DNA from: Burkholderiales bacterium
GTDB taxonomy: Bacteria; Pseudomonadota; Gammaproteobacteria; Burkholderiales; JAEUOS01
Length of the DNA: 45,137 bases
Assembly (NCBI GenBank): GCA_947473125.1
Contig: CANJDH010000031.1
Coordinates: 1 to 45,137 of the forward strand
Direction: 5' to 3'
Shown here: one piece after another, positions 23,386 to 34,142 of the stretch
Position numbering within the stretch: the stretch's first letter is position 1
Layout of the letters: every line of letters begins with the position of its first letter
Program-made: the position numbers and the translations under genes
The notes under the pieces: model-generated
Database searches by the model: none
What the model was told of the DNA's origin: nothing
The model's input: only the letters and a program-made list of their open reading frames with translations

Positions 23386-23522
23386 ACCAGAGGCGTACTG
23401 ATTCTCCAAGGCATAATCCCGGCCTGATCTGGCAGCCTGTTATGTTTCAACCCTATCGATCCAATGGCTGGCCTGGATGAACCCCCTGACTTTTCTTGCA
23501 AGACCCCGCCTTTCTCGAACTG

Positions 23523-23900
23523 ATGCCTGATTCCTCCGCCGCCGGCACAAGCGCGCCGCGCCTGGTCATCCTGCTCAACAACGTATCGACTGACGCCCCG
23601 GATGCGCTGTCGATTCCGCTACGCTACGCCGCCACGGCTGCCGCAATGGATGTTGCGGTCGAAATGCACGCCGTGAGCCGCTCGGTTGCGCTGTTGCGTC
23701 GTGATGCGGTGAGCCCGGCGTTGCTCGCCCAACTACAGCAAGCGGTTGAACTTGGCGTGCAGATATTCGCCTGCCCGGTGGCACTGGCCGAGCAGGGCAT
23801 GCGCGCCGAAGACCTGAGCGATGCTGTGGCGGGCGTGCGCGGTGCGGCGTCGCTGCTGGTGTCCGGCCTCGGACCGGACGCCCGGTTCATGGTGTTTTGA
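23523..23900 (+). CDS. DsrE-like sulfur-relay family protein
   Basis: A 125-residue soluble protein with the DsrE/DsrF-like fold pattern: an initial strand LVILLNN, a middle segment VAVEMHAVSRSV and a candidate sulfur-accepting Cys84 in QIFACPVALAE, where the DsrE family has its reactive cysteine. DsrE-type proteins take persulfide sulfur from TusA-type carriers. The ATG at 23523 is chosen because an upstream TTG would add nine residues that are not family-like. It is the first of the sulfur-carrier group and is separated by 519 bp from the TusA-like gene, so it may have its own promoter. Assignment is by fold pattern, so moderate confidence. Confidence 0.75.
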   Translation: MPDSSAAGTSAPRLVILLNNVSTDAPDALSIPLRYAATAAAMDVAVEMHAVSRSVALLRRDAVSPALLAQLQQAVELGVQIFACPVALAEQGMRAEDLSDAVAGVRGAASLLVSGLGPDARFMVF

Positions 23901-24419: not shown

Positions 24420-24641
24420 ATGAACCACGATGTCGAATGGAATGCCGGCGAGCTCGGCTGCGGCGACCTGGTGCTCGAACTGCGCCAGCGCGTGCGCGCG
24501 GCGCCCGGCAAGGTGTTCAAGGTGATCGCACTTGATGCTGGCGCCCCGGCCGACATCCCCGCCTGGTGCGGCATGACCGGCCACACCTTGCTGGCCCAGG
24601 ATGCGGCCGCCAAAACCTACTGGATTCGCGCCAAGGAATGA
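24420..24641 (+). CDS. TusA-like sulfur carrier protein
   Basis: A 73-residue protein beginning MNHDVEWNAGELGCGDLVLE. It matches TusA across its length. The active cysteine Cys14 stands in GCGDL, where classical TusA has CPxP, so the Cys is kept but the prolines are not. The C-terminal half has DIPAWCGMTGHTLL, equivalent to the DIPGFCTFMEHEL region of E. coli TusA, with a second cysteine at 50. TusA proteins carry persulfide sulfur between desulfurases and acceptors such as DsrE. A GGGAGG ribosome site supports the ATG. The protein closely resembles the N-terminal domain of the fusion at 27662, and a DsrE-like gene follows 59 bp downstream. Confidence 0.82.
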   Translation: MNHDVEWNAGELGCGDLVLELRQRVRAAPGKVFKVIALDAGAPADIPAWCGMTGHTLLAQDAAAKTYWIRAKE

Positions 24642-24700: not shown

Positions 24701-25063
24701 ATGCCCGGCAAATTTGTCATCAGCCTGACCCACGGCCTCAACGACACCGACAAGGCCACCGTCGCATTCGTGGTCGCCAATGCGGCGGTCGCGTCCGATA
24801 AGGACACCGTCGTGTTCCTTTCGATCGAAGGCACGCGCCTGTCGCAAAAAGGCGTCGCCGATGCCGTGCATGAAGAAGGCTTCGCACCCCTCAAGGAATT
24901 GATGGACAACTTCGCCAAAGCCGGCGGAAAAATGTATGTCTGCTCGCCCTGCTTCAAAAAGCGCAAGCTCGACGAAAACAACCTGGTGCCCGGCGCAGCC
25001 GTGGTCGGCGGTGCCAAGCTGGTTGAATTCATGAGCGACGGCGCACCCAGCATCAGTTACTAA
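24701..25063 (+). CDS. DsrE family protein with CxxC motif
   Basis: A 120-residue soluble protein: FVISLTHGLNDTDKATVAF at the N-terminus, a DTVVFLSIEG strand and Cys81-Ser-Pro-Cys84 in KMYVCSPCFKKRKL, the position of the family's sulfur-accepting cysteine. It ends VVGGAKLVEFMSDGAPSISY, typical of DsrE-family proteins annotated as peroxiredoxin-like. A ribosome site AGGAGA lies 8 bp upstream of the ATG. It sits between the TusA-like carrier and the periplasmic binding protein gene (13 bp gap), which argues for a co-transcribed unit. A role in passing sulfur to or from the TusA-like carriers is inferred from family knowledge. Confidence 0.87.
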   Translation: MPGKFVISLTHGLNDTDKATVAFVVANAAVASDKDTVVFLSIEGTRLSQKGVADAVHEEGFAPLKELMDNFAKAGGKMYVCSPCFKKRKLDENNLVPGAAVVGGAKLVEFMSDGAPSISY

Positions 25064-25076
25064 AAGAGGAATCAGC

Positions 25077-25964
25077 ATGAAATCGACACGCAGACACATC
25101 CTCGCCGCCGGCGGCGCCGCTGCCGGTGCACTGGCACTCGCCGGCGTCACGCCGGTACTGGGCCAGGCCAAACGCAAGTTGCGCTTCGGCGTCGGGCCTT
25201 TGTTGCCCAACCCCGAAGACACCAAGAAGGCCTACACGCCGCTGTTCGCGCACCTGGCCAAAGAGCTCAATGCCGACTTCGACCTCGTCGCCACAACCGA
25301 CTGGGCCGGCATGGCCGTGGCCATGGGCTCGGGCCAGCTCGATCTGGCCTGGATGGGGCCGTGGGGTTACATCATTGCCAACAGCAGTACCGGCTGCACC
25401 GCAGTGGCCACCGTCAAATACGACGACAAGCCGGTTTACTACGCGATCATCATCGGCAAACCCGACCTGAAGGTAACGAAGTTTCCGGACGATACGAAAG
25501 GCATGTCGATATCGTTTGCCGACGTCGGCTCCACCTCAGGCTGGCTGATTCCAAGCTGGTACGCCAAGGAAGTCTGGAAAATCGACCCCAAGACCTTCTG
25601 GAAATACACCGAGGGTGCAACGCATGCAGCCAACGAGATGGCCGTGCAGGGCGGGCAGGCCGACATGGCGACCGACTTTGACCGCAACCGCAACGCGATG
25701 ATTTCGTCCGGTCGCGTCAAGGCCGACAGCAACAAGATCCTCTGGACCTCGGCGCCGCTACCGAATGACGCCATCGCCATTCCGAAGGATGCGCCGCAGG
25801 GGTTTGGCGCCCAGGTGCAGAAGATCCTGACTGCCATCACCGTGGAGCAGGCCAAAACCTTGCTGCCACCACGCTACACCGGGTTTGTGCCGGCGACACA
25901 TGCTTCGTATGATTCGATCGAAAAGGCGGGCATTGCGTTAGGCAAGATCAAGCCCAAGACCTGA
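25077..25964 (+). CDS. phnD: phosphonate-type ABC transporter substrate-binding protein (PhnD family)
   Basis: A 295-residue periplasmic protein. The N-terminus TRRHILAAGGAAAGALALAG is twin-arginine-like (RRxIL) and is followed by a signal cleavage near GQA. Family marks are LRFGVGPLLPNPEDTKKAY, the tandem TTDWAGMAVAMGSGQLDLAW and GYIIAN. The permease gene starts 3 bp after its stop. PhnD proteins bind phosphonate, phosphite or related oxyanions, but many uncharacterised members bind other small ligands. In this locus, among sulfur-carrier genes, an organosulfur or seleno-compound is equally plausible. The gene symbol is a family label only. Confidence 0.9.
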   Translation: MKSTRRHILAAGGAAAGALALAGVTPVLGQAKRKLRFGVGPLLPNPEDTKKAYTPLFAHLAKELNADFDLVATTDWAGMAVAMGSGQLDLAWMGPWGYIIANSSTGCTAVATVKYDDKPVYYAIIIGKPDLKVTKFPDDTKGMSISFADVGSTSGWLIPSWYAKEVWKIDPKTFWKYTEGATHAANEMAVQGGQADMATDFDRNRNAMISSGRVKADSNKILWTSAPLPNDAIAIPKDAPQGFGAQVQKILTAITVEQAKTLLPPRYTGFVPATHASYDSIEKAGIALGKIKPKT

Positions 25965-25967
25965 AGC

Positions 25968-26786
25968 GTGGCCACCACTGGCGCCCAACAGGCGCAAGTG
26001 CTGCAGGAAGCGCAGCGCAAGGGCAACATTCGCGGCCGGCTCAAGCTGGCCGCGATCCTTGTGGCCGTGCTGGTCTTCTATGTGGTGTCGTGGCGCCTGG
26101 CACAGATCGACCCGGCCAAACTGGTTAACGGCCTGCCAAAGCTCGGCTATTGGCTCTCGCAAGCCTGGCCGCCCAAGCTCGATGAATTGCCGCTGTTTGC
26201 CGAGCGTATCGCCGAGACCATGGCGATGGCGGCGATCGGCACCACCATTGCCACTCTGCTCGCCTTGCCGATGGCGGTGCTGGCGAGCCGCAACATCACG
26301 CCGTTTCCGCGGCTCTACTATCCGGCGCGCTGGTTCCTGAACGCGCTGCGCGGCATTGATTCATTCGTGTTCGCGCTGTTGTTCGTGGCCGCCGTGGGCC
26401 TGGGCCCGTTTGCCGGCGTGCTCGGCATTGCCCTGCACACCTGGGGCAGTGCTGCCAAATTCTTCGCCGATCACATCGAGAATGCGCAGCTCGGTCCGCT
26501 CGAAGCGGTTCGTACCACGGGCGCCGGGCGCAACACGGCGATCGTGTTTGCCTTGCTGCCCGACATCCTGCCGGTGCTGCTCTCGACTACGTTGTTCTGG
26601 TGGGAGTTCAATGTACGTGCCTCCACCGTGCTCGGCGTAGTCGGTGCCGGCGGCATCGGCATGGAACTCAAGAACAGCATGGACCTGCTCGATTTTTCGC
26701 GGCTGTTCACCATCATCGCGCTGATCCTGGTCGTGGTGACGGTGCTCGATCAATTGAGCGGCTGGCTGCGCAGGCGCCTGGTATGA
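25968..26786 (+). CDS. phnE: phosphonate-type ABC transporter permease (PhnE family)
   Basis: A 272-residue membrane protein starting at GTG 25968, with about six hydrophobic segments. The EAA coupling loop is visible as EAVRTTGAGRNTAIVFALLP near residues 180-199. The segment GLGPFAGVLGIALHTWGSAAK is typical of PhnE permeases. The stop overlaps the ATPase start by an ATGA junction. It forms the membrane channel for the ligand of the PhnD protein just upstream. No second permease is present, so a homodimeric channel is expected. Confidence 0.92.
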   Translation: MATTGAQQAQVLQEAQRKGNIRGRLKLAAILVAVLVFYVVSWRLAQIDPAKLVNGLPKLGYWLSQAWPPKLDELPLFAERIAETMAMAAIGTTIATLLALPMAVLASRNITPFPRLYYPARWFLNALRGIDSFVFALLFVAAVGLGPFAGVLGIALHTWGSAAKFFADHIENAQLGPLEAVRTTGAGRNTAIVFALLPDILPVLLSTTLFWWEFNVRASTVLGVVGAGGIGMELKNSMDLLDFSRLFTIIALILVVVTVLDQLSGWLRRRLV

Positions 26787-27592
26787 GCGATACCAATTTA
26801 TTGTTTGAAGTGCGCGGTGCGAGCAAGTCCTTTGACGGGCGCGCCGCCATCGTCGATGTGAGCTTCAGCGCGCATCGCGGCGAGTTTGTTGCGGTGCTCG
26901 GCTCCAGCGGGGCCGGCAAGACCACACTGTTTCGCTGTCTTGCGGGCTTGCTGCCGATGGATGCCGGCTCCGCACACCTCAACGGGCGCGATGTGGCGGC
27001 GTTTACGGGGCGCGAGCGGCGCCACATCGCCGTGGTGTTTCAGCAGTTCAACCTGGTGAGCCGCCTTTCTGCACTGCAAAACGTGCTGGCCGGCCGGCTC
27101 GGCTACGTGCCGGCGTGGCGCGGCTGGCTGCGTCGCTTCACGCGCGCCGACGAGCTGTTTGCACTGGAGTGCCTGGAGCGGGTCGGCCTGCTGGCACAGG
27201 CGATGCAGCGCGCAGATACCCTGTCGGGTGGGCAGCAGCAGCGTGTCGCCATCGCCCGTGCGCTCGCGCAGCGGCCCGACGTGATCATCGCCGACGAACC
27301 GGTAGCAAGCCTGGATCCGCGCATCGGTGCCGGCATTCTCGAATTGCTGCGCTCGATTTGCCATGCCGAGGCCGATGGCGTTGCCGTGATCTGCAGCCTG
27401 CACCAACCGCATTTCGCGCGCCAGTATGCCGACCGCGTGGTCGGCATGACCGGTGGCCGGATCGTTGTCGACATGCCGGCCGCCGCATTTGACGACAATG
27501 CCCTGCGGCAGGTGTATGGTCACGATACGGACAGCAGTGATCCATCCCAATCACCGTTGCAGTTATCGACGCAGGAAGCGGCGCTTGCGTAG
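26783..27592 (+). CDS. phnC: phosphonate-type ABC transporter ATP-binding protein (PhnC family)
   Basis: A 269-residue ATPase with Walker A GSSGAGKTT, the Q-loop VFQQFNLV, signature LSGGQQQRVAIARAL, Walker B VIIADEP with D-loop ASLDP, and the H-loop in CSLHQPHFA, a PhnC hallmark (SLHQ). All catalytic motifs are intact. It overlaps the permease gene by 4 bp and is followed after 69 bp by the TusA-MetE fusion, whose ribosome site is strong. The order binding protein, permease, ATPase matches phosphonate-class importers. Confidence 0.94.
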   Translation: MSDTNLLFEVRGASKSFDGRAAIVDVSFSAHRGEFVAVLGSSGAGKTTLFRCLAGLLPMDAGSAHLNGRDVAAFTGRERRHIAVVFQQFNLVSRLSALQNVLAGRLGYVPAWRGWLRRFTRADELFALECLERVGLLAQAMQRADTLSGGQQQRVAIARALAQRPDVIIADEPVASLDPRIGAGILELLRSICHAEADGVAVICSLHQPHFARQYADRVVGMTGGRIVVDMPAAAFDDNALRQVYGHDTDSSDPSQSPLQLSTQEAALA

Positions 27593-27661: not shown

Positions 27662-29200
27662 ATGACCCAAACCGCACCCGCCGCACAGCACCCGCATCAG
27701 GCCGATGTCAGTTTTGACGGCGGTGATCTCGATTGCGGCAATGGTTTGCTGTTGCTGATTCGCAAGCATATCGACCCGCTCGACCGCGGCGGCCTGCTTG
27801 AGATTCGCTCCACCGAAATCTCGGTCGATGAAGACCTGCCCGCCTGGTGCCGCATGACCGGCAACGAGCTGATCTCGTTCATCAAACAGGACAAGCAGCG
27901 TAGCTTCCTGGTAGCCAAGGGCAAGTTTGCCGAACGCCGCGCCGGCGCTATGCCCGTGCGCGAGGCGGTCTCGGGTGTCGCGCTGATCGAGGTCAAACCG
28001 ATGCTCAACTTTCCGGCACCGGCGCCGGCACCGGCGATCAGACCGCTTTCAGTGATGGGCATCGGCAGCTGGCCGCGCCCGCGCTGGATGCTGCAGGCGG
28101 TGCATGAACACATGGAAGGGCGGCTCGACGAAGCCTCATTCCAGGCTACCGCCGACGACGCTGTGCGTTTGTCGGTGGGGGCGCAGATTCGCGCCGGCGC
28201 CGACGTCGTGACCGACGGCGAACAGCGCCGCGACAGCTATTCGAGCTTCGTCGCTTCCCGGCTCGACAATTGCCAGCTGATTCCGCTCACCGATTTGCTG
28301 CCGCTGGTCGATGACCCGGAGGAGTTTGAACGCGAACTGCGTGCCCTGGATGTGCCCGCCGGCGACGTGCGCCACCCCGCCGTGTTTGGACCGCTCGGCC
28401 GCAGTCGCGGCATCGCCGTGCACGAGGTGGAATTCGCACGCACGCTCACCGACCTGCCGATCAAGATTGCGCTGCCCGGCCCCTACCTGCTGACCCGCAC
28501 CATGTGGATGGAATGCATTTCCGACCGCGCCTATGCGAATCGCGAAGACCTCGCCAAAGACATCGTGCGTGTGCTGCGCGAAGAGATCGCCTGTCTGCTC
28601 GCTGCGGGCACCGCGCTGGTACAGCTCGACGAGCCGGTGCTCTCCGAAGTGGTGTTCAGCGGCCCGGCCAACCAGCGCAGCTTCATGTGCGGCGCCCTGT
28701 CGGCAAAGGCGGACAGCCCGATCGAGCTGGCGTTTGCGCGCGATCTGGTCAATGCCGTCACTGCCGGGTTCCCGCGCGAGCGCATCGCCCTGCACATGTG
28801 CCGTGGCAACTGGACCGCCGACGAGACCAAGGCGCTGTCGGGCGATTACCAGCCGCTGGTCGATACGCTCGGGCAAATGCAGGTCGGCACGCTGCTGCTT
28901 GAGCTGTGCACGCCGCGTTCCGGCGAAATGGAAATCCTCACTTCGTTGCCCGGCGACATGCGCATCGGCATTGGCGCGTGCAACCAGAAACATGCGCATG
29001 TCGAGTCGGTCGAGTCGATCGTCAAGCATGTCGAGCACGCCATCAACCTGTTCGGCGCCGAGCGCGTGCTGCTCACGCCCGACTGCGGCTTCGCAACCTT
29101 CGCCGACAATCCGCTTAATTCTGATGCCACCGCAGAAGCCAAGCTGGCAGCGCTTGCACAGGCGACGCGCATTTTGCGCGAGCGGCATCACATTGCCTGA
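27662..29200 (+). CDS. TusA-like sulfur carrier domain fused to a MetE-type zinc methyltransferase domain
   Basis: A 512-residue fusion protein. Residues about 14-95 resemble TusA: DLDCGNGLLLLIRKHIDP with Cys25 at the carrier position and DLPAWCRMTGNELI with Cys63. A Pro/Ala linker at 118-126 follows. Residues 128-510 form a MetE C-terminal (cobalamin-independent methionine synthase) barrel. Zinc ligands His378 and Cys380 (LHMC), Glu414 (LLLELC) and Cys475 (TPDCG) are all present. So are the homocysteine-site residues Ser136 (GIGSWP) and Glu187 (DGEQRR), and Asp323-Glu324 (QLDEP). The N-terminal half of full-length MetE is missing, and the Trp that packs the folate in MetE appears to be replaced near 277-280. 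The methyl donor and acceptor may therefore differ from those of MetE, and the TusA domain could present the thiol. The ribosome site is GAGGAG. Confidence 0.88.
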   Translation: MTQTAPAAQHPHQADVSFDGGDLDCGNGLLLLIRKHIDPLDRGGLLEIRSTEISVDEDLPAWCRMTGNELISFIKQDKQRSFLVAKGKFAERRAGAMPVREAVSGVALIEVKPMLNFPAPAPAPAIRPLSVMGIGSWPRPRWMLQAVHEHMEGRLDEASFQATADDAVRLSVGAQIRAGADVVTDGEQRRDSYSSFVASRLDNCQLIPLTDLLPLVDDPEEFERELRALDVPAGDVRHPAVFGPLGRSRGIAVHEVEFARTLTDLPIKIALPGPYLLTRTMWMECISDRAYANREDLAKDIVRVLREEIACLLAAGTALVQLDEPVLSEVVFSGPANQRSFMCGALSAKADSPIELAFARDLVNAVTAGFPRERIALHMCRGNWTADETKALSGDYQPLVDTLGQMQVGTLLLELCTPRSGEMEILTSLPGDMRIGIGACNQKHAHVESVESIVKHVEHAINLFGAERVLLTPDCGFATFADNPLNSDATAEAKLAALAQATRILRERHHIA

Positions 29201-29234
29201 CGACTGCGCCAGGCGGCGCGGCGAGCAGTAGTAA

Positions 29235-29299
29235 GCGACAAGTGGGCGACAAGTGGGCGACAAGTGGGCGACAAGCGGGCGACAAGTGTGAGACAAGCG
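29235..29299. repeat. 11 bp tandem repeat (GCGACAAGTGG)
   Basis: About 5.5 to 6 head-to-tail units with period 11. The first three are identical, the fourth has C for T, and the last two are degraded. It begins 35 bp after the stop of the TusA-MetE gene and separates it from the EamA gene. There are no spacers, so it is not CRISPR. Confidence 0.92.
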
Positions 29300-29348
29300 C
29301 GGTCCACCGCGTCAGTCGCAACATATTTTCGCCAGTGACGGCCTGAAG

Positions 29349-29415
29349 AGTGGCCGCCAGAGCCATTCTTGAAGGCATTGCCGCCGAAAACCTTGGTGTG
29401 AGCGGCCGCCGGGAG
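29349..29415. repeat. REP-like dispersed repeat, copy C
   Basis: Segment with CCAGAGCCATTCTTGAAGGC, then CCGAAAACCTTGGTGTGAGCG and GCCGCCGGGAGCG. It keeps the core GAGCCATTCTTG and the TTGGTGxGAGCG tail of the other copies. Lies upstream of the EamA gene. Confidence 0.6.
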
Positions 29416-29443
29416 CGATGCATCCCGTGTTAGTCTGCGCGCC

Positions 29444-31047: not shown

Positions 31048-31779
31048 ATGATCGTCCTTGGCACCCAGGCGCACGGCGCGACCAAGCGCCGCCCCATCAC
31101 GGTGATGGAGGCGACTTTCTACAAGGGCGAATGGATGGAGAGCGGTGACGATCCGACATTGTCTCCCACGGCATTCCTGATCGAACAGCCGCCCAACTAT
31201 ACGCTGCTGCCGCACTTTCACCGGCAGAACCAGTTTCAATTGTTTGTCGAGGGTTCCGGCAGCATCGGGCGCGCTGCACTGGGCGCCGTGACGGTCCACT
31301 ATGCCGGCGCCTACACCGGTTACGGGCCGCTGCTCTCGGGCGCAGACGGCATCAAGTATTTCACGATTCGCGCGGTGCTCGAAAGCGGCTTTACGGCGGT
31401 GGCCGAGGCCAAAGAAAAAATGGTGCGCGGCCCCAAGCGCCATGCCAACTCGGTGCCGGTGCCGCCCCTGTCCGGCCCCGCGCTGGCCGCGCTGACGCGC
31501 ATTGAGGCATTGACCCTGATCGAACCTGAGGACGGCATGGGCGCGCAGCTCACGCGCCTGCCGCCCGGTGCGCCGCTGCATCCCGAGGCGCTCAGGGGCA
31601 GCGAAGGCCAGTTCCTGTTCGTCACCGCCGGCACGCTGCAGCATGGCGGCGTCACCCTGGGACGCTGGGAGAACCTGTTCCTGTCCGCCGGCGATGCGGC
31701 GCTGCCGCTGCGGGCCGGGCCCGGCGGCGCCGAAGTGGTAGCCATGCATATCCCGTTCAAGGATGCGGCCTACGCCTGA
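31048..31779 (+). CDS. bicupin-like protein of unknown function
   Basis: A 243-residue soluble protein. The first half has a cupin-type motif, LPHFHRQNQFQLFVEGSG, near residues 51-70, with two histidines and a glutamate spaced as in metal-binding cupins. A second, weaker cupin-like repeat follows in the C-terminal half (LPPGAPLHPEALRGSEGQFL and HGGVTLGRWENLFL). The ATG at 31048 follows an AGGAAGGGA ribosome site. A longer in-frame extension upstream is non-coding in character. The Bug gene begins 13 bp after its stop, with its own AAGGAG site, so the two are probably co-transcribed and the cupin may act on the imported compound or its product. The enzyme activity is unknown. Confidence 0.75.
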   Translation: MIVLGTQAHGATKRRPITVMEATFYKGEWMESGDDPTLSPTAFLIEQPPNYTLLPHFHRQNQFQLFVEGSGSIGRAALGAVTVHYAGAYTGYGPLLSGADGIKYFTIRAVLESGFTAVAEAKEKMVRGPKRHANSVPVPPLSGPALAALTRIEALTLIEPEDGMGAQLTRLPPGAPLHPEALRGSEGQFLFVTAGTLQHGGVTLGRWENLFLSAGDAALPLRAGPGGAEVVAMHIPFKDAAYA

Positions 31780-31792
31780 AGGAGCACGACAC

Positions 31793-32788
31793 ATGATCGC
31801 CATCCCGAAACGCGCTGCGGCGCGGCTGCGCCGTGCCCTGTTCAGGGCGGTACTCGGCGCCGCAGTCACGCTGCCGGCCGCCGCGCAGGATTATCCGGCC
31901 CGGCCGATTCGCTTCATCGTGTCGACTGCGCCGGGCACCACCGTCGACGCCGCAGCCCGTTATCTGGGCGCCAAACTCGGTGAAGAGTGGGGCGGTGCCG
32001 CGGTGATTGTCGAAAACCGCATCGGCGCCAACGGCGCCATCGCCAGCGACTTTGTGGCCAAATCCCCGGCCGACGGCTACACCCTGCTGTTCACCGCCGG
32101 CTCGCACTACGCAACGCGCTGGATGGTGGCGAAACTGCCCTACGACCCGGTCGAGGATTTCAGGCCGGTGGCGCGCGTCGGCGTAGCCTATCTGGTGCTG
32201 GTGGTGCCGAGTGCGTCGAAGGCAAATTCAATGGCGGACCTGATCGCGGAGATGAAGGCGCGTCCCGGCGACCTGGTCTACTCGTCTGCCGGGAACGGCA
32301 GCGCCACCCACCTCTCGTCGGTGCTGCTCACCTCGATGGCCGGCGTCAGCGCGCGCCATGTGCCCTACAAGGGCGCGGCCCAGGCGCTCACCGACACCAT
32401 CGGCGGCCAGGTGCAGTTCACGGTGGCCGGCATCGCCACGGCGGCGGGCCATATCCGCGCCGGGCGCCTCAAGGCGCTCGGGGTGACCGGACCGAAACGC
32501 TCGCAAAGCCTGCCCGACGTGCAGGCGATTGCCGAGGGCGGGCTGCCTGGGTATGAATTGACCACCATGGTCGGCATGCTCGCCCCCAGGGCCACCCCGC
32601 CGGCGATCGTGCGCAAACTCTCGAACGCACTCATCAAGCTGTCCTCGACGCCGGAGTACAAGGCCTTTGCAGCGGCCCAGGGCATGGAGCCCGACTTCGC
32701 CGACACCGACAAGTTCAGCGCCGAAGCCGTGCCCGACCTGGAGCACTGGCGCAAGGTGATTGCCCTGAGCGGCGCAAAGGCGGACTGA
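31793..32788 (+). CDS. Bug-family tripartite tricarboxylate transporter substrate-binding protein
   Basis: A 331-residue periplasmic binding protein. A signal peptide of about 31 residues (LPAAAQ) precedes DYPARPIRFIVSTAPGTTVD. Family motifs VIVENRIGANGAIASD, KSPADGYTLLFT and VYSSAGNGSATHLSSVL are intact. The ribosome site GAAGGAG lies 8 bp upstream of the ATG at 31793. It follows the cupin-like gene and precedes the DUF1446 fragment. Like the other Bug genes here it lacks TctAB partners nearby. The ligand is unknown. Confidence 0.93.
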   Translation: MIAIPKRAAARLRRALFRAVLGAAVTLPAAAQDYPARPIRFIVSTAPGTTVDAAARYLGAKLGEEWGGAAVIVENRIGANGAIASDFVAKSPADGYTLLFTAGSHYATRWMVAKLPYDPVEDFRPVARVGVAYLVLVVPSASKANSMADLIAEMKARPGDLVYSSAGNGSATHLSSVLLTSMAGVSARHVPYKGAAQALTDTIGGQVQFTVAGIATAAGHIRAGRLKALGVTGPKRSQSLPDVQAIAEGGLPGYELTTMVGMLAPRATPPAIVRKLSNALIKLSSTPEYKAFAAAQGMEPDFADTDKFSAEAVPDLEHWRKVIALSGAKAD

Positions 32789-32913
32789 ATGTATTGCTGC
32801 GCGGGTGGCCGGGCGCGAGGCAAAGCGTCGGAAACAGTGCGGGACACAACGCGGGGCGGGAAAATGCGCTTCCAGGCACGGCGCAACGCCGCTCACCGAG
32901 TCAGGAGTTGTTG

Positions 32914-33168
32914 ATGTCAGACATATTTCGGGTCGGCAATTGCGCCGGCTTCTCGGGCGACCGGGTCGATGCCGCCGCTCCGGTGGTCGATACGCTGATT
33001 GAACTGGGCGGCCCCTGCGCGCTGTTTTTCGAAACCCTGGGGGAGCGCACCGTCGCGCTGGCGCAACTCGAGAAGCGCCGCGACCCGGAGCGCGGCCACG
33101 AGCCGATGCTCGAGCGCCTGCTCGAACCGATCCTGCTGCGCGTTGCTCGACTTGGGGAGCAAACATGA
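32914..33168 (+). pseudogene. N-terminal fragment of a DUF1446 / acyclic terpene utilisation (AtuA) family protein
   Basis: An 84-residue ORF beginning MSDIFRVGNCAGFSGDRVDA and continuing VVDTLIELGGPCALFFETLG. This matches the start of AtuA/DUF1446 proteins (RIGNxAGFxGDR motif), which are normally about 450 residues long and act in acyclic terpene or isovalerate catabolism. Here the match ends at about residue 75, a TGA follows, and the stop overlaps the ATG of the Bug gene at 33165. The remaining 370 or so residues of the family are absent from the window. A good ribosome site (CAGGAG) is kept. The simplest reading is a deletion remnant, although a small, still-translated leader ORF coupled to the Bug gene cannot be excluded. 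Confidence 0.7.
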
Positions 33169-34142
33169 ATCATCGCCGCAAGTGGCTGCTGGCCTCACTG
33201 GGTGCGGGCACCCTCGCGATGCCGCTCGCATCCTTGGCGCAACATCCGGGTGCATACCCGGCCAAGCCGGTGCGCATCGTCGTCGCCTCGACCGCCGGCG
33301 GCGGTGACGACATCGTTGCGCGTCTGCTCGCATCGAAACTGGGCGACCTGCTCGGCCAGCAATTCATCGTCGAAAACCGGCCCGGTGCCGGCGGCAACAT
33401 CGGGCAGACGTCTGTCGCCAAGTCGCCGCCCGATGGCTACACGCTCCTGCTCGCCGGGATTTCCATGGCCGGGGCGCGCTTTGTCAACGCCAACCTCGGC
33501 TATGAGCTGTTTCGCGACTTCACGCCGGTATCGTGGGTCGAAATGTCGCCGTTTGTCCTCGTCGCCAGTCCCGCCTTGCCGGCGCGCGACGTGAAACAGC
33601 TGATTGCGCTGGCTCGTTCACGGCCTGGCAAGACGACGTTCGCCACCATCGGCGCCGGGCAGATCCCGTATTGGGGCGTGATGTTGTTCAACAGCATGGC
33701 CGGCATCGAGGCGCTTGAGGTGCCGTACAAGGGCCCCTCCGAAGCCATCGTCGATGTGATCGCCGGCCGCATCGACTACACGGTCACGCCGATCCCGGTG
33801 GCCCTCGCCAACAAGGACAAGCTGCGCGTGCTCGCCGTCACCAGCACGGTGCGCTCGGAGGCGCTGCCCGATACGCCGACCATGGCCGAGGCCGCGCTGC
33901 CCGGATACGACATGGCGGCGGCGCGCGGCATCATGGGGCCGGCGGGGATGCCGCGCGAGATTGTGGGCGTCCTGAATCGTGCGATGGTGCAAATCCTGGC
34001 ATCGGCCGAGATGCGCGAACGCCTCGCCAAAGCCGGCTCGATTGCGATCTCAAGCACCCCCGAGGAGATGATGATGCGCTATGAAGAACGACTGGCCGTG
34101 TTCGGCAAGATCGCCAAAGAGGCCGGCCTCAAACCGCAATAG
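33165..34142 (+). CDS. Bug-family tripartite tricarboxylate transporter substrate-binding protein
   Basis: A 325-residue periplasmic protein. The signal sequence begins MNHRRKWLLASLGAGTLAMP and cleavage is near LAQ. The mature protein starts HPGAYPAKPVRIVVASTAGG and carries FIVENRPGAGGNIGQ and KSPPDGYTLLLAG. The start codon overlaps the stop of the DUF1446 fragment. The three complete Bug genes in the window are clearly separate family members and not recent duplicates, since long stretches differ. Ligand unknown. Confidence 0.92.
   Translation: MNHRRKWLLASLGAGTLAMPLASLAQHPGAYPAKPVRIVVASTAGGGDDIVARLLASKLGDLLGQQFIVENRPGAGGNIGQTSVAKSPPDGYTLLLAGISMAGARFVNANLGYELFRDFTPVSWVEMSPFVLVASPALPARDVKQLIALARSRPGKTTFATIGAGQIPYWGVMLFNSMAGIEALEVPYKGPSEAIVDVIAGRIDYTVTPIPVALANKDKLRVLAVTSTVRSEALPDTPTMAEAALPGYDMAAARGIMGPAGMPREIVGVLNRAMVQILASAEMRERLAKAGSIAISSTPEEMMMRYEERLAVFGKIAKEAGLKPQ

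Follow-up and report, generated by a model that had tools for sequence, protein, structure and literature searches.

The window analysed here, a stretch of 45,137 nucleotides from a Burkholderiales bacterium (contig CANJDH010000031.1), carries a gene in which a TusA-like domain is joined through a linker to a MetE-type catalytic barrel. Genes for a stand-alone TusA-like carrier, two DsrE-like proteins and an ABC transporter lie 5' of it on the same strand (Table 1). On the 3' side, short repeated DNA occupies positions 29200-29420, where minus-strand frames repeat CRPLVAHLSP, and two consecutive open reading frames at 31763-34142 resemble, by eye, tripartite-tricarboxylate-type binding proteins.

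Table 1. Genes and protein parts at the locus (positions within the window)
Feature	Position	Strand	Basis and remarks
Second DsrE-like protein, optional member	23496..23900	+	Pfam DsrE 2.1e-05, over cut-off
Stand-alone TusA-like carrier	24420..24641	+	Pfam TusA 8.3e-08, over cut-off; Cys in CGDL context
DsrE-like protein with CSPC (CxxC) motif	24701..25063	+	Pfam DsrE 1.3e-16
HtxB/PtxB-like periplasmic substrate-binding protein	25077..25964	+	44% identical to HtxB 5me4 over the aligned stretch
PhnE-type permease	25968..26786	+	TIGR01097 over cut-off
PhnC-type ATPase	26783..27592	+	TIGR02315 over cut-off; start chosen by us within ORF 26600-27592
TusA::MetE-like fusion, 512 aa	27662..29200	+	ORF open at exactly these ends
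TusA-like domain, ~aa 12-88 (delimited by us)	27695..27925	+	Pfam TusA match at aa 30-86 (E 2.3e-05); Cys25 and Cys63
Linker, ~aa 89-126	27926..28039	+	Pro/Ala-rich end, consensus PAPAP; pLDDT 65 and 60 in blocks at 91-110
MetE-type catalytic barrel, ~aa 127-512	28040..29197	+	S136, E187, D323, H378, C380, E414, C475; family-specific C285, C343

The fusion protein and its relation to MetE and MesD

According to Pfam, the barrel of the fusion is Meth_synt_2 (E 1.9e-24, above cut-off), and the fused TusA domain stays below its cut-off with 24.6 bits against 28.6 (E 2.3e-05). Meth_synt_1 reaches E 0.041 and 13.8 bits against a cut-off of 27, so that no N-terminal MetE domain is accepted, as the initial annotation had noticed. 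The TusA::MetE fusion that it described is borne out by the single plus-strand frame of 512 residues and by related loci: in the best 80 of 170 relatives the ORF hit begins at query residue 15 or earlier and includes the TusA part, and the fusion is therefore no assembly accident.

Residues S136, E187, D323, H378, C380, E414 and C475 align with S433, E484, D599, H641, C643, E665 and C726 of E. coli MetE, whose zinc and homocysteine roles are given in the accessible passages of PMC7857596. All seven, and also Cys25 of the TusA domain, are invariant in 73/73 aligned homologs, and the retention of the zinc and homocysteine sites, likewise claimed before, is thereby confirmed. The alignment comprises the window and 72 further sequences, selected from 79 full-length hits by removal of near-duplicates; L065, a MAG sequence with a stop inside the frame, was left out. 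The context of Cys25 is CGNG and not CPxP, and Cys63 is conserved in at least 90% of the 73 sequences. Two barrel cysteines, Cys285 and Cys343, are invariant in the 73 homologs, whereas the other proteins in the comparison lack a cysteine at these positions.

An AlphaFold2 model of the fusion based on the 73 sequences has a mean pLDDT of 83.9 and a pTM of 0.82. Its best structural match is MesD (3rpd; VIA-align Z 37.4, rmsd 2.6, 328 aligned), and next among the best matches is T. maritima MetE (1xdj; Z 35.2, rmsd 3.0, 348 aligned); the barrel is structurally closer to MetE than to UROD-type folds. The linker of about 38 residues, which is in part of low confidence in this model, may leave room for Cys25 to reach the zinc. 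The sequence supports a zinc-thiolate methyl (or alkyl) transfer barrel devoid of the folate half, as in the initial annotation; its carrier cysteine is invariant and tethered on a Pro/Ala linker.

Trp-561 (W561) of E. coli MetE, which we take to be the folate-stacking tryptophan, aligns with T280 of the fusion. The reported loss of this residue is thus correct, yet it is not a distinguishing mark: the position lacks Trp in all nine single-barrel proteins compared, namely MesD (3rpd), seven MetE-type proteins of the window's own genome (L081, L082, L083, L084, L085, L086 and L088) and L048, and keeps it in both full MetE proteins (E. coli and L070). In a 22-sequence tree the fusion barrels form their own clade with a support of 100, apart from MetE, from MesD (3rpd together with L083) and from the other paralogs. 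They do not fall, with a conserved folate Trp, into a clade of ordinary methionine synthases. Since the alignment with MetE, MesD and paralogs shows the homocysteine residues retained, the analogy to epoxyalkane:CoM transferase (EaCoMT) suggested earlier appears weak.

Could the fusion be a MesD-like methionine synthase that works without folate, with TusA as a regulatory or redox add-on? In our alignment, MesD is likewise a single MetE-type barrel with the zinc and homocysteine residues and no folate Trp; the retained homocysteine site and the structural match to 3rpd speak for this reading. MesD, however, has no TusA domain and, according to PMC7857596, MesX as its known partner, whereas the fusion has recurrent tusA and dsrE partners and a clade separate from both MesD and MetE; DUF1852 (MesX) is absent from the Pfam hits of nine window genes scanned. 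Moreover, the window's genome has a paralog, L083, that does group with 3rpd, and MetH is present in 40/40 carrier genomes tested. We consider a MesD-kind synthase improbable. We chose these 40 genomes: the window's own (G000) and 39 that belong to loci among the 80, with the genome of L009 not included. Since MetH occurs in all of them, a main role as back-up methionine synthase, which we also considered, is hardly tenable. The N-terminal half of MetE gave a match in 22/40 carrier genomes, three of them weak (~1e-6), and no match in the window's genome. Seven more MetE-type loci lie on contigs C8, C13, C14, C16 and C41 of that genome, one of them grouping with MesD.

A conserved module with an optional transporter

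A scan of genome contigs gave 170 relatives of the fusion, and the best 80 loci, 62-88% identical over the best segment, were kept. By their record titles they come from Beta- and Alphaproteobacteria, Planctomycetota, Binatia, Rokubacteria, Acidobacteria and others. Among these best 80 of 170 relatives, dsrE is found near the fusion in 76/80 loci and a stand-alone tusA in 70/80; a PhnD/E/C-type (HtxB-like) ABC transporter is complete in 24/80 and partial in 2/80, a gene pair termed c6 and c9 occurs in 16/80 and the second DsrE in 13/80, all counts being reduced by contig ends. They are quoted out of 80 since L159 and L160, whose contigs equal those of L044 and L047 in length, are probably duplicate records of these two. 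The genes tusA, dsrE and tusA::metE are kept together across phyla and constitute a conserved module. The fusion is nevertheless rare: it was found in 5/150 genomes of the window's order, where one copy is a contig-end fragment, and in 1/198 genomes of the order sample of Xanthobacter tagetidis, where the sample centre is the only carrier.

The carrier cysteines of the partners are conserved as well. Both cysteines of the stand-alone TusA are present in 68/69 sequences and both CxxC cysteines of DsrE in 77/77, the window included in each case; the stand-alone TusA has its cysteine in CGDL instead of CPxP. A selenocysteine form of DsrE was also looked for, but no in-frame stop was found among the DsrE matches, which cover 82/86 loci.

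The c6 and c9 genes form an alternative insert between dsrE and the fusion (in L034, L055, L004, L096 and others). The c6 protein is small, with hydrophobic stretches and C112 and C115 invariant in 16 sequences. The c9 protein is beta-rich; its model is of modest quality (pLDDT 68.5), and its fold weakly resembles that of an S-layer domain from the archaeon Methanosarcina (3u2g; E 2.1e-06, TM 0.21-0.32). Scanned representatives of c6 and c9 matched no Pfam or NCBIfam family, and c9 occurs in 1/199 genomes of the X. tagetidis order sample, the centre itself.

One relative, L001, lies on a contig titled as a Bordetella parapertussis MAG, and its fusion is 87% identical to that of the window; the fusions of the Bordetella loci L058 and L067 are 67% and 64% identical to it. 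The record title of L001 may be wrong.

In the transporter of the window, the binding protein allows a comparison with HtxB, from which a third oxygen is kept out by W52, N128 and F158 according to the accessible passages of PMC5700983. W52 (W76 here), R178 and D206 are kept, while N128 is replaced by Ser152 and F158 by His183, and the pocket thus departs from the two-oxygen arrangement. These two replacements give an STS-H oxygen site as in PtxB on an HtxB background, and the protein resembles the "hybrid" HtxB/PtxB group of PMC5700983, judged by that group's description in the accessible text. Judged by these residues, the pocket would accommodate an anion with three oxygens, for instance phosphite, sulfite or selenite. 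The model of a putative selenate-binding protein, TIGR04553, scores far below its cut-off in this protein (81.8 vs 250 bits).

Selenium and sulfur genes in carrier genomes

SelA exceeds its cut-off in 38/40 carrier genomes, the two misses (G156 and G187) being MAGs by title, compared to 45/150 genomes of the window's order and 11/198 of the X. tagetidis order. With four other carriers from the sample of the window's order, SelA is found in 39/44 carriers vs 43/145 non-carriers of that order (Fisher p 1.9e-12, ancestry ignored). For the X. tagetidis order no unbiased 2x2 table can be drawn up because the fusion occurs in the sample centre only; SelA is present in 7/8 Hyphomicrobiales-type carriers, assigned by record title, vs 10/197 others of the order (p 5e-08, ancestry ignored). 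SelD occurs in 42/44 carriers and in 112/150 genomes of the window's order, and SelA or SelD in 43/44 carriers vs 109/145 non-carriers (p 4e-04, again ignoring ancestry). The SelA background was taken from two orders, those of the window and of X. tagetidis, and serves as a control for carriers of these orders rather than for those of Planctomycetota or Binatia. Within the sample of the window's order alone, SelA is found in 2/5 carriers (p 0.64), one of the three misses being 78% complete. In the window's genome, itself 97% complete, SelA is present, SelD does not reach its cut-off, and no tRNA-Sec was found in 4.4 kb around selA.

Selenium genes also adjoin the module at some loci. A plasmid of Paracoccus ferrooxidans carries, as annotated, a divergent cysteine desulfurase gene, tusA, dsrE, two hypothetical genes that we identify as c6 and c9, the fusion, selA and trxB, with selB about 11 kb away. 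In P. versutus, selA follows the fusion at the same place, and in P. aminovorans (L073) it begins about 0.7 kb past the fusion. Genome G039 has selD some 2.4 kb away from its fusion. Within the flanks of the best 80 of 170 relatives, where 54 loci extend about 8 kb to either side, selA is near the fusion in this one genus only and selD in this one genome only. On contig L035, titled as deltaproteobacterial, the divergent gene adjoining tusA exceeds the LysR_Sec_metab cut-off (285.4 vs 250 bits), and no other locus has a close copy of it. In a bulk scan of flanking proteins (121 of the 138 first-neighbour proteins under 650 aa), 3/121 match NF040786 at 1e-20, and 0/10 scanned afterwards match at 1e-30. 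The LysR-type genes of L046 and L074 were considered as selenium-type regulators and rejected: with 81.2 and 77.6 bits they lie far below the cut-off, and other LysR models fit them better; L035 alone is therefore used as LysR evidence. No LysR model is over cut-off in the L046 and L074 copies. L033, L046 and L074 share a LysR-type regulator 3' of the fusion, 86-94% identical among the three.

The carriers thus mostly have selenium machinery, and the selenium link of the module itself is circumstantial. It might be indirect: carriers would tend to have a Sec-dependent formate dehydrogenase, and the module would then serve molybdenum cofactor sulfuration or be another co-travelling trait, or the association would reflect shared ancestry. 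The null result within the window's order and the disregard of ancestry in the Fisher tests favour such an indirect link. It accounts poorly, on the other hand, for SelA in the tested Hyphomicrobiales-type, Planctomycetota and Binatia carriers, with one miss, and for the selenium genes that Paracoccus, G039 and L035 carry beside the module, and we regard it as unlikely.

A sulfur version of the module has support in the classical role of TusA and DsrE as sulfur relay proteins. Here the carriers would hold a persulfide, and the barrel would methylate the TusA persulfide, as the initial annotation had imagined, or sulfurate homocysteine or another amino-acid thiol, in sulfur assimilation or in the use of methyl-sulfur. 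At six loci (L063, L064, L066, L071, L076 and L077) genes for a Cys/Met PLP enzyme, an alpha/beta hydrolase and MetW adjoin dsrE and the fusion; we name the first two MetY and MetX, each scanned in one representative. Five of the six are titled Candidatus Binatia and one Desulfurellaceae, and they represent one lineage. These neighbours fit homocysteine as co-substrate as well as the sulfur version. No stand-alone tusA was found at these six loci; they also have a gene that by eye resembles a nucleoside phosphorylase. A cysteine desulfurase lies near tusA in Paracoccus and Amaricoccus, and SoxY, counted in carriers only, is found in 29/44, including all five without SelA. The sulfur version leaves the presence of SelA in the other 39 carriers unexplained, however, and a SoxY match is absent in 15/44 carriers. 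We see it as possible, though on the doubtful side.

Proposed function and closest known systems

We tentatively propose, at somewhat below an even chance, that the module handles a chalcogen on a protein carrier, where a methyl-selenium (or methyl-sulfur) group is demethylated onto homocysteine independently of cobalamin. A transporter or a redox pair would supply a small species of selenium (or sulfur), either an oxyanion or a methylated form, which DsrE and TusA would carry bound to cysteine. The tethered TusA domain would swing the cysteine-bound group into the MetE barrel, where the zinc-activated homocysteine would accept the methyl group and yield methionine, leaving the carrier with a bare selenopersulfide (or persulfide). 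A bare selenopersulfide could then feed selenophosphate synthetase and, through it, selenocysteine and selenouridine.

In its most specific form, which we consider rather unlikely, the proposal is a cobalamin-free reclaiming of selenium: zinc-bound homocysteine would demethylate a methylselenenyl group on the cysteine of the fused TusA, the selenopersulfide would pass to SelD, and the HtxB-like transporter would import selenite or methylseleninate. The selenium reading draws on the invariant zinc, homocysteine and carrier residues, the dsrE and tusA partners, the SelA and SelD counts, selA in Paracoccus, selD in G039, the LysR_Sec_metab match in L035 and the STS-H pocket, and also on two published observations treated below, the tie of YedF to SelD and the transcript response of M. 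maripaludis to selenium depletion. Against it stand the null result in the window's order, the window genome without SelD, the limited proximity of selA and selD, the six MetY/MetX/MetW loci that fit sulfur too, SoxY in all SelA-less carriers and the lack of a Sec form of DsrE. From a chemical point of view, the thiolate might attack selenium instead of carbon, which would count against the demethylation.

Several known systems resemble the module in part. In YedF, a TusA and a DsrE part form one protein, and this protein co-occurs with SelD (accessible passages of PMC5322559, PMC2432076 and PMC9312934). Like the module, it has a TusA-type and a DsrE-type part, a CxxC in the latter and a genomic link to selenium genes (PMC5322559, same scope). 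Unlike YedF, the module encodes TusA and DsrE in individual genes, shows CG in place of CPxP and adds a MetE barrel, and TIGR03527 (YedF) finds no match at E 0.01 in the module proteins. Type I mlp clusters and SdmABC contain methyltransferases of a related barrel superfamily that are proposed to free selenium from methyl-selenides, and 87% of the species with type I mlp clusters make Sec (accessible text of PMC10418091, and PMC11097638 for the former statement). As described there, these methyltransferases, MtaA-like SCMT proteins in the type I mlp clusters, work with corrinoid proteins and in anoxic settings. The module appears to differ from them in its core MetE fold and TusA carrier, and no corrinoid gene was recognised among its recurrent neighbours. 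By analogy, the proposed reaction would be a cobalamin-independent counterpart of their methyl-selenide demethylation.

In M. maripaludis, selenium depletion raises the transcripts of TusA/TusD, of a PhnU-type permease and of an Sdm-type methyl-selenide methyltransferase, as far as the accessible text of PMC11097638 describes it. Its authors attribute the TusA/TusD response to tRNA thiolation and see no clear evidence of selenium transport by their candidates, and both views weigh against the selenium reading. They also state there that, to their knowledge, specific selenium importers have not been identified. This is the reason why the candidate importer of the module matters, if the selenium reading is true.

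A description of the TusA-MetE fusion or of the module was not found in the titles, abstract starts and passages of the open-licence literature searched, and the module is a combination of known parts in a new arrangement. The operon and the association with SelA and SelD alter the likely cargo of the fused carrier, and the module points to a not yet described route for methylated selenium or sulfur. If the selenium reading is true, it provides candidates for a carrier, an importer and a demethylase, and these occur in bacteria that can be cultivated, among them Paracoccus versutus, X. tagetidis and Duganella. Under either reading, selenium or sulfur, a tethered sulfur carrier is coupled to a zinc methyl-transfer site.
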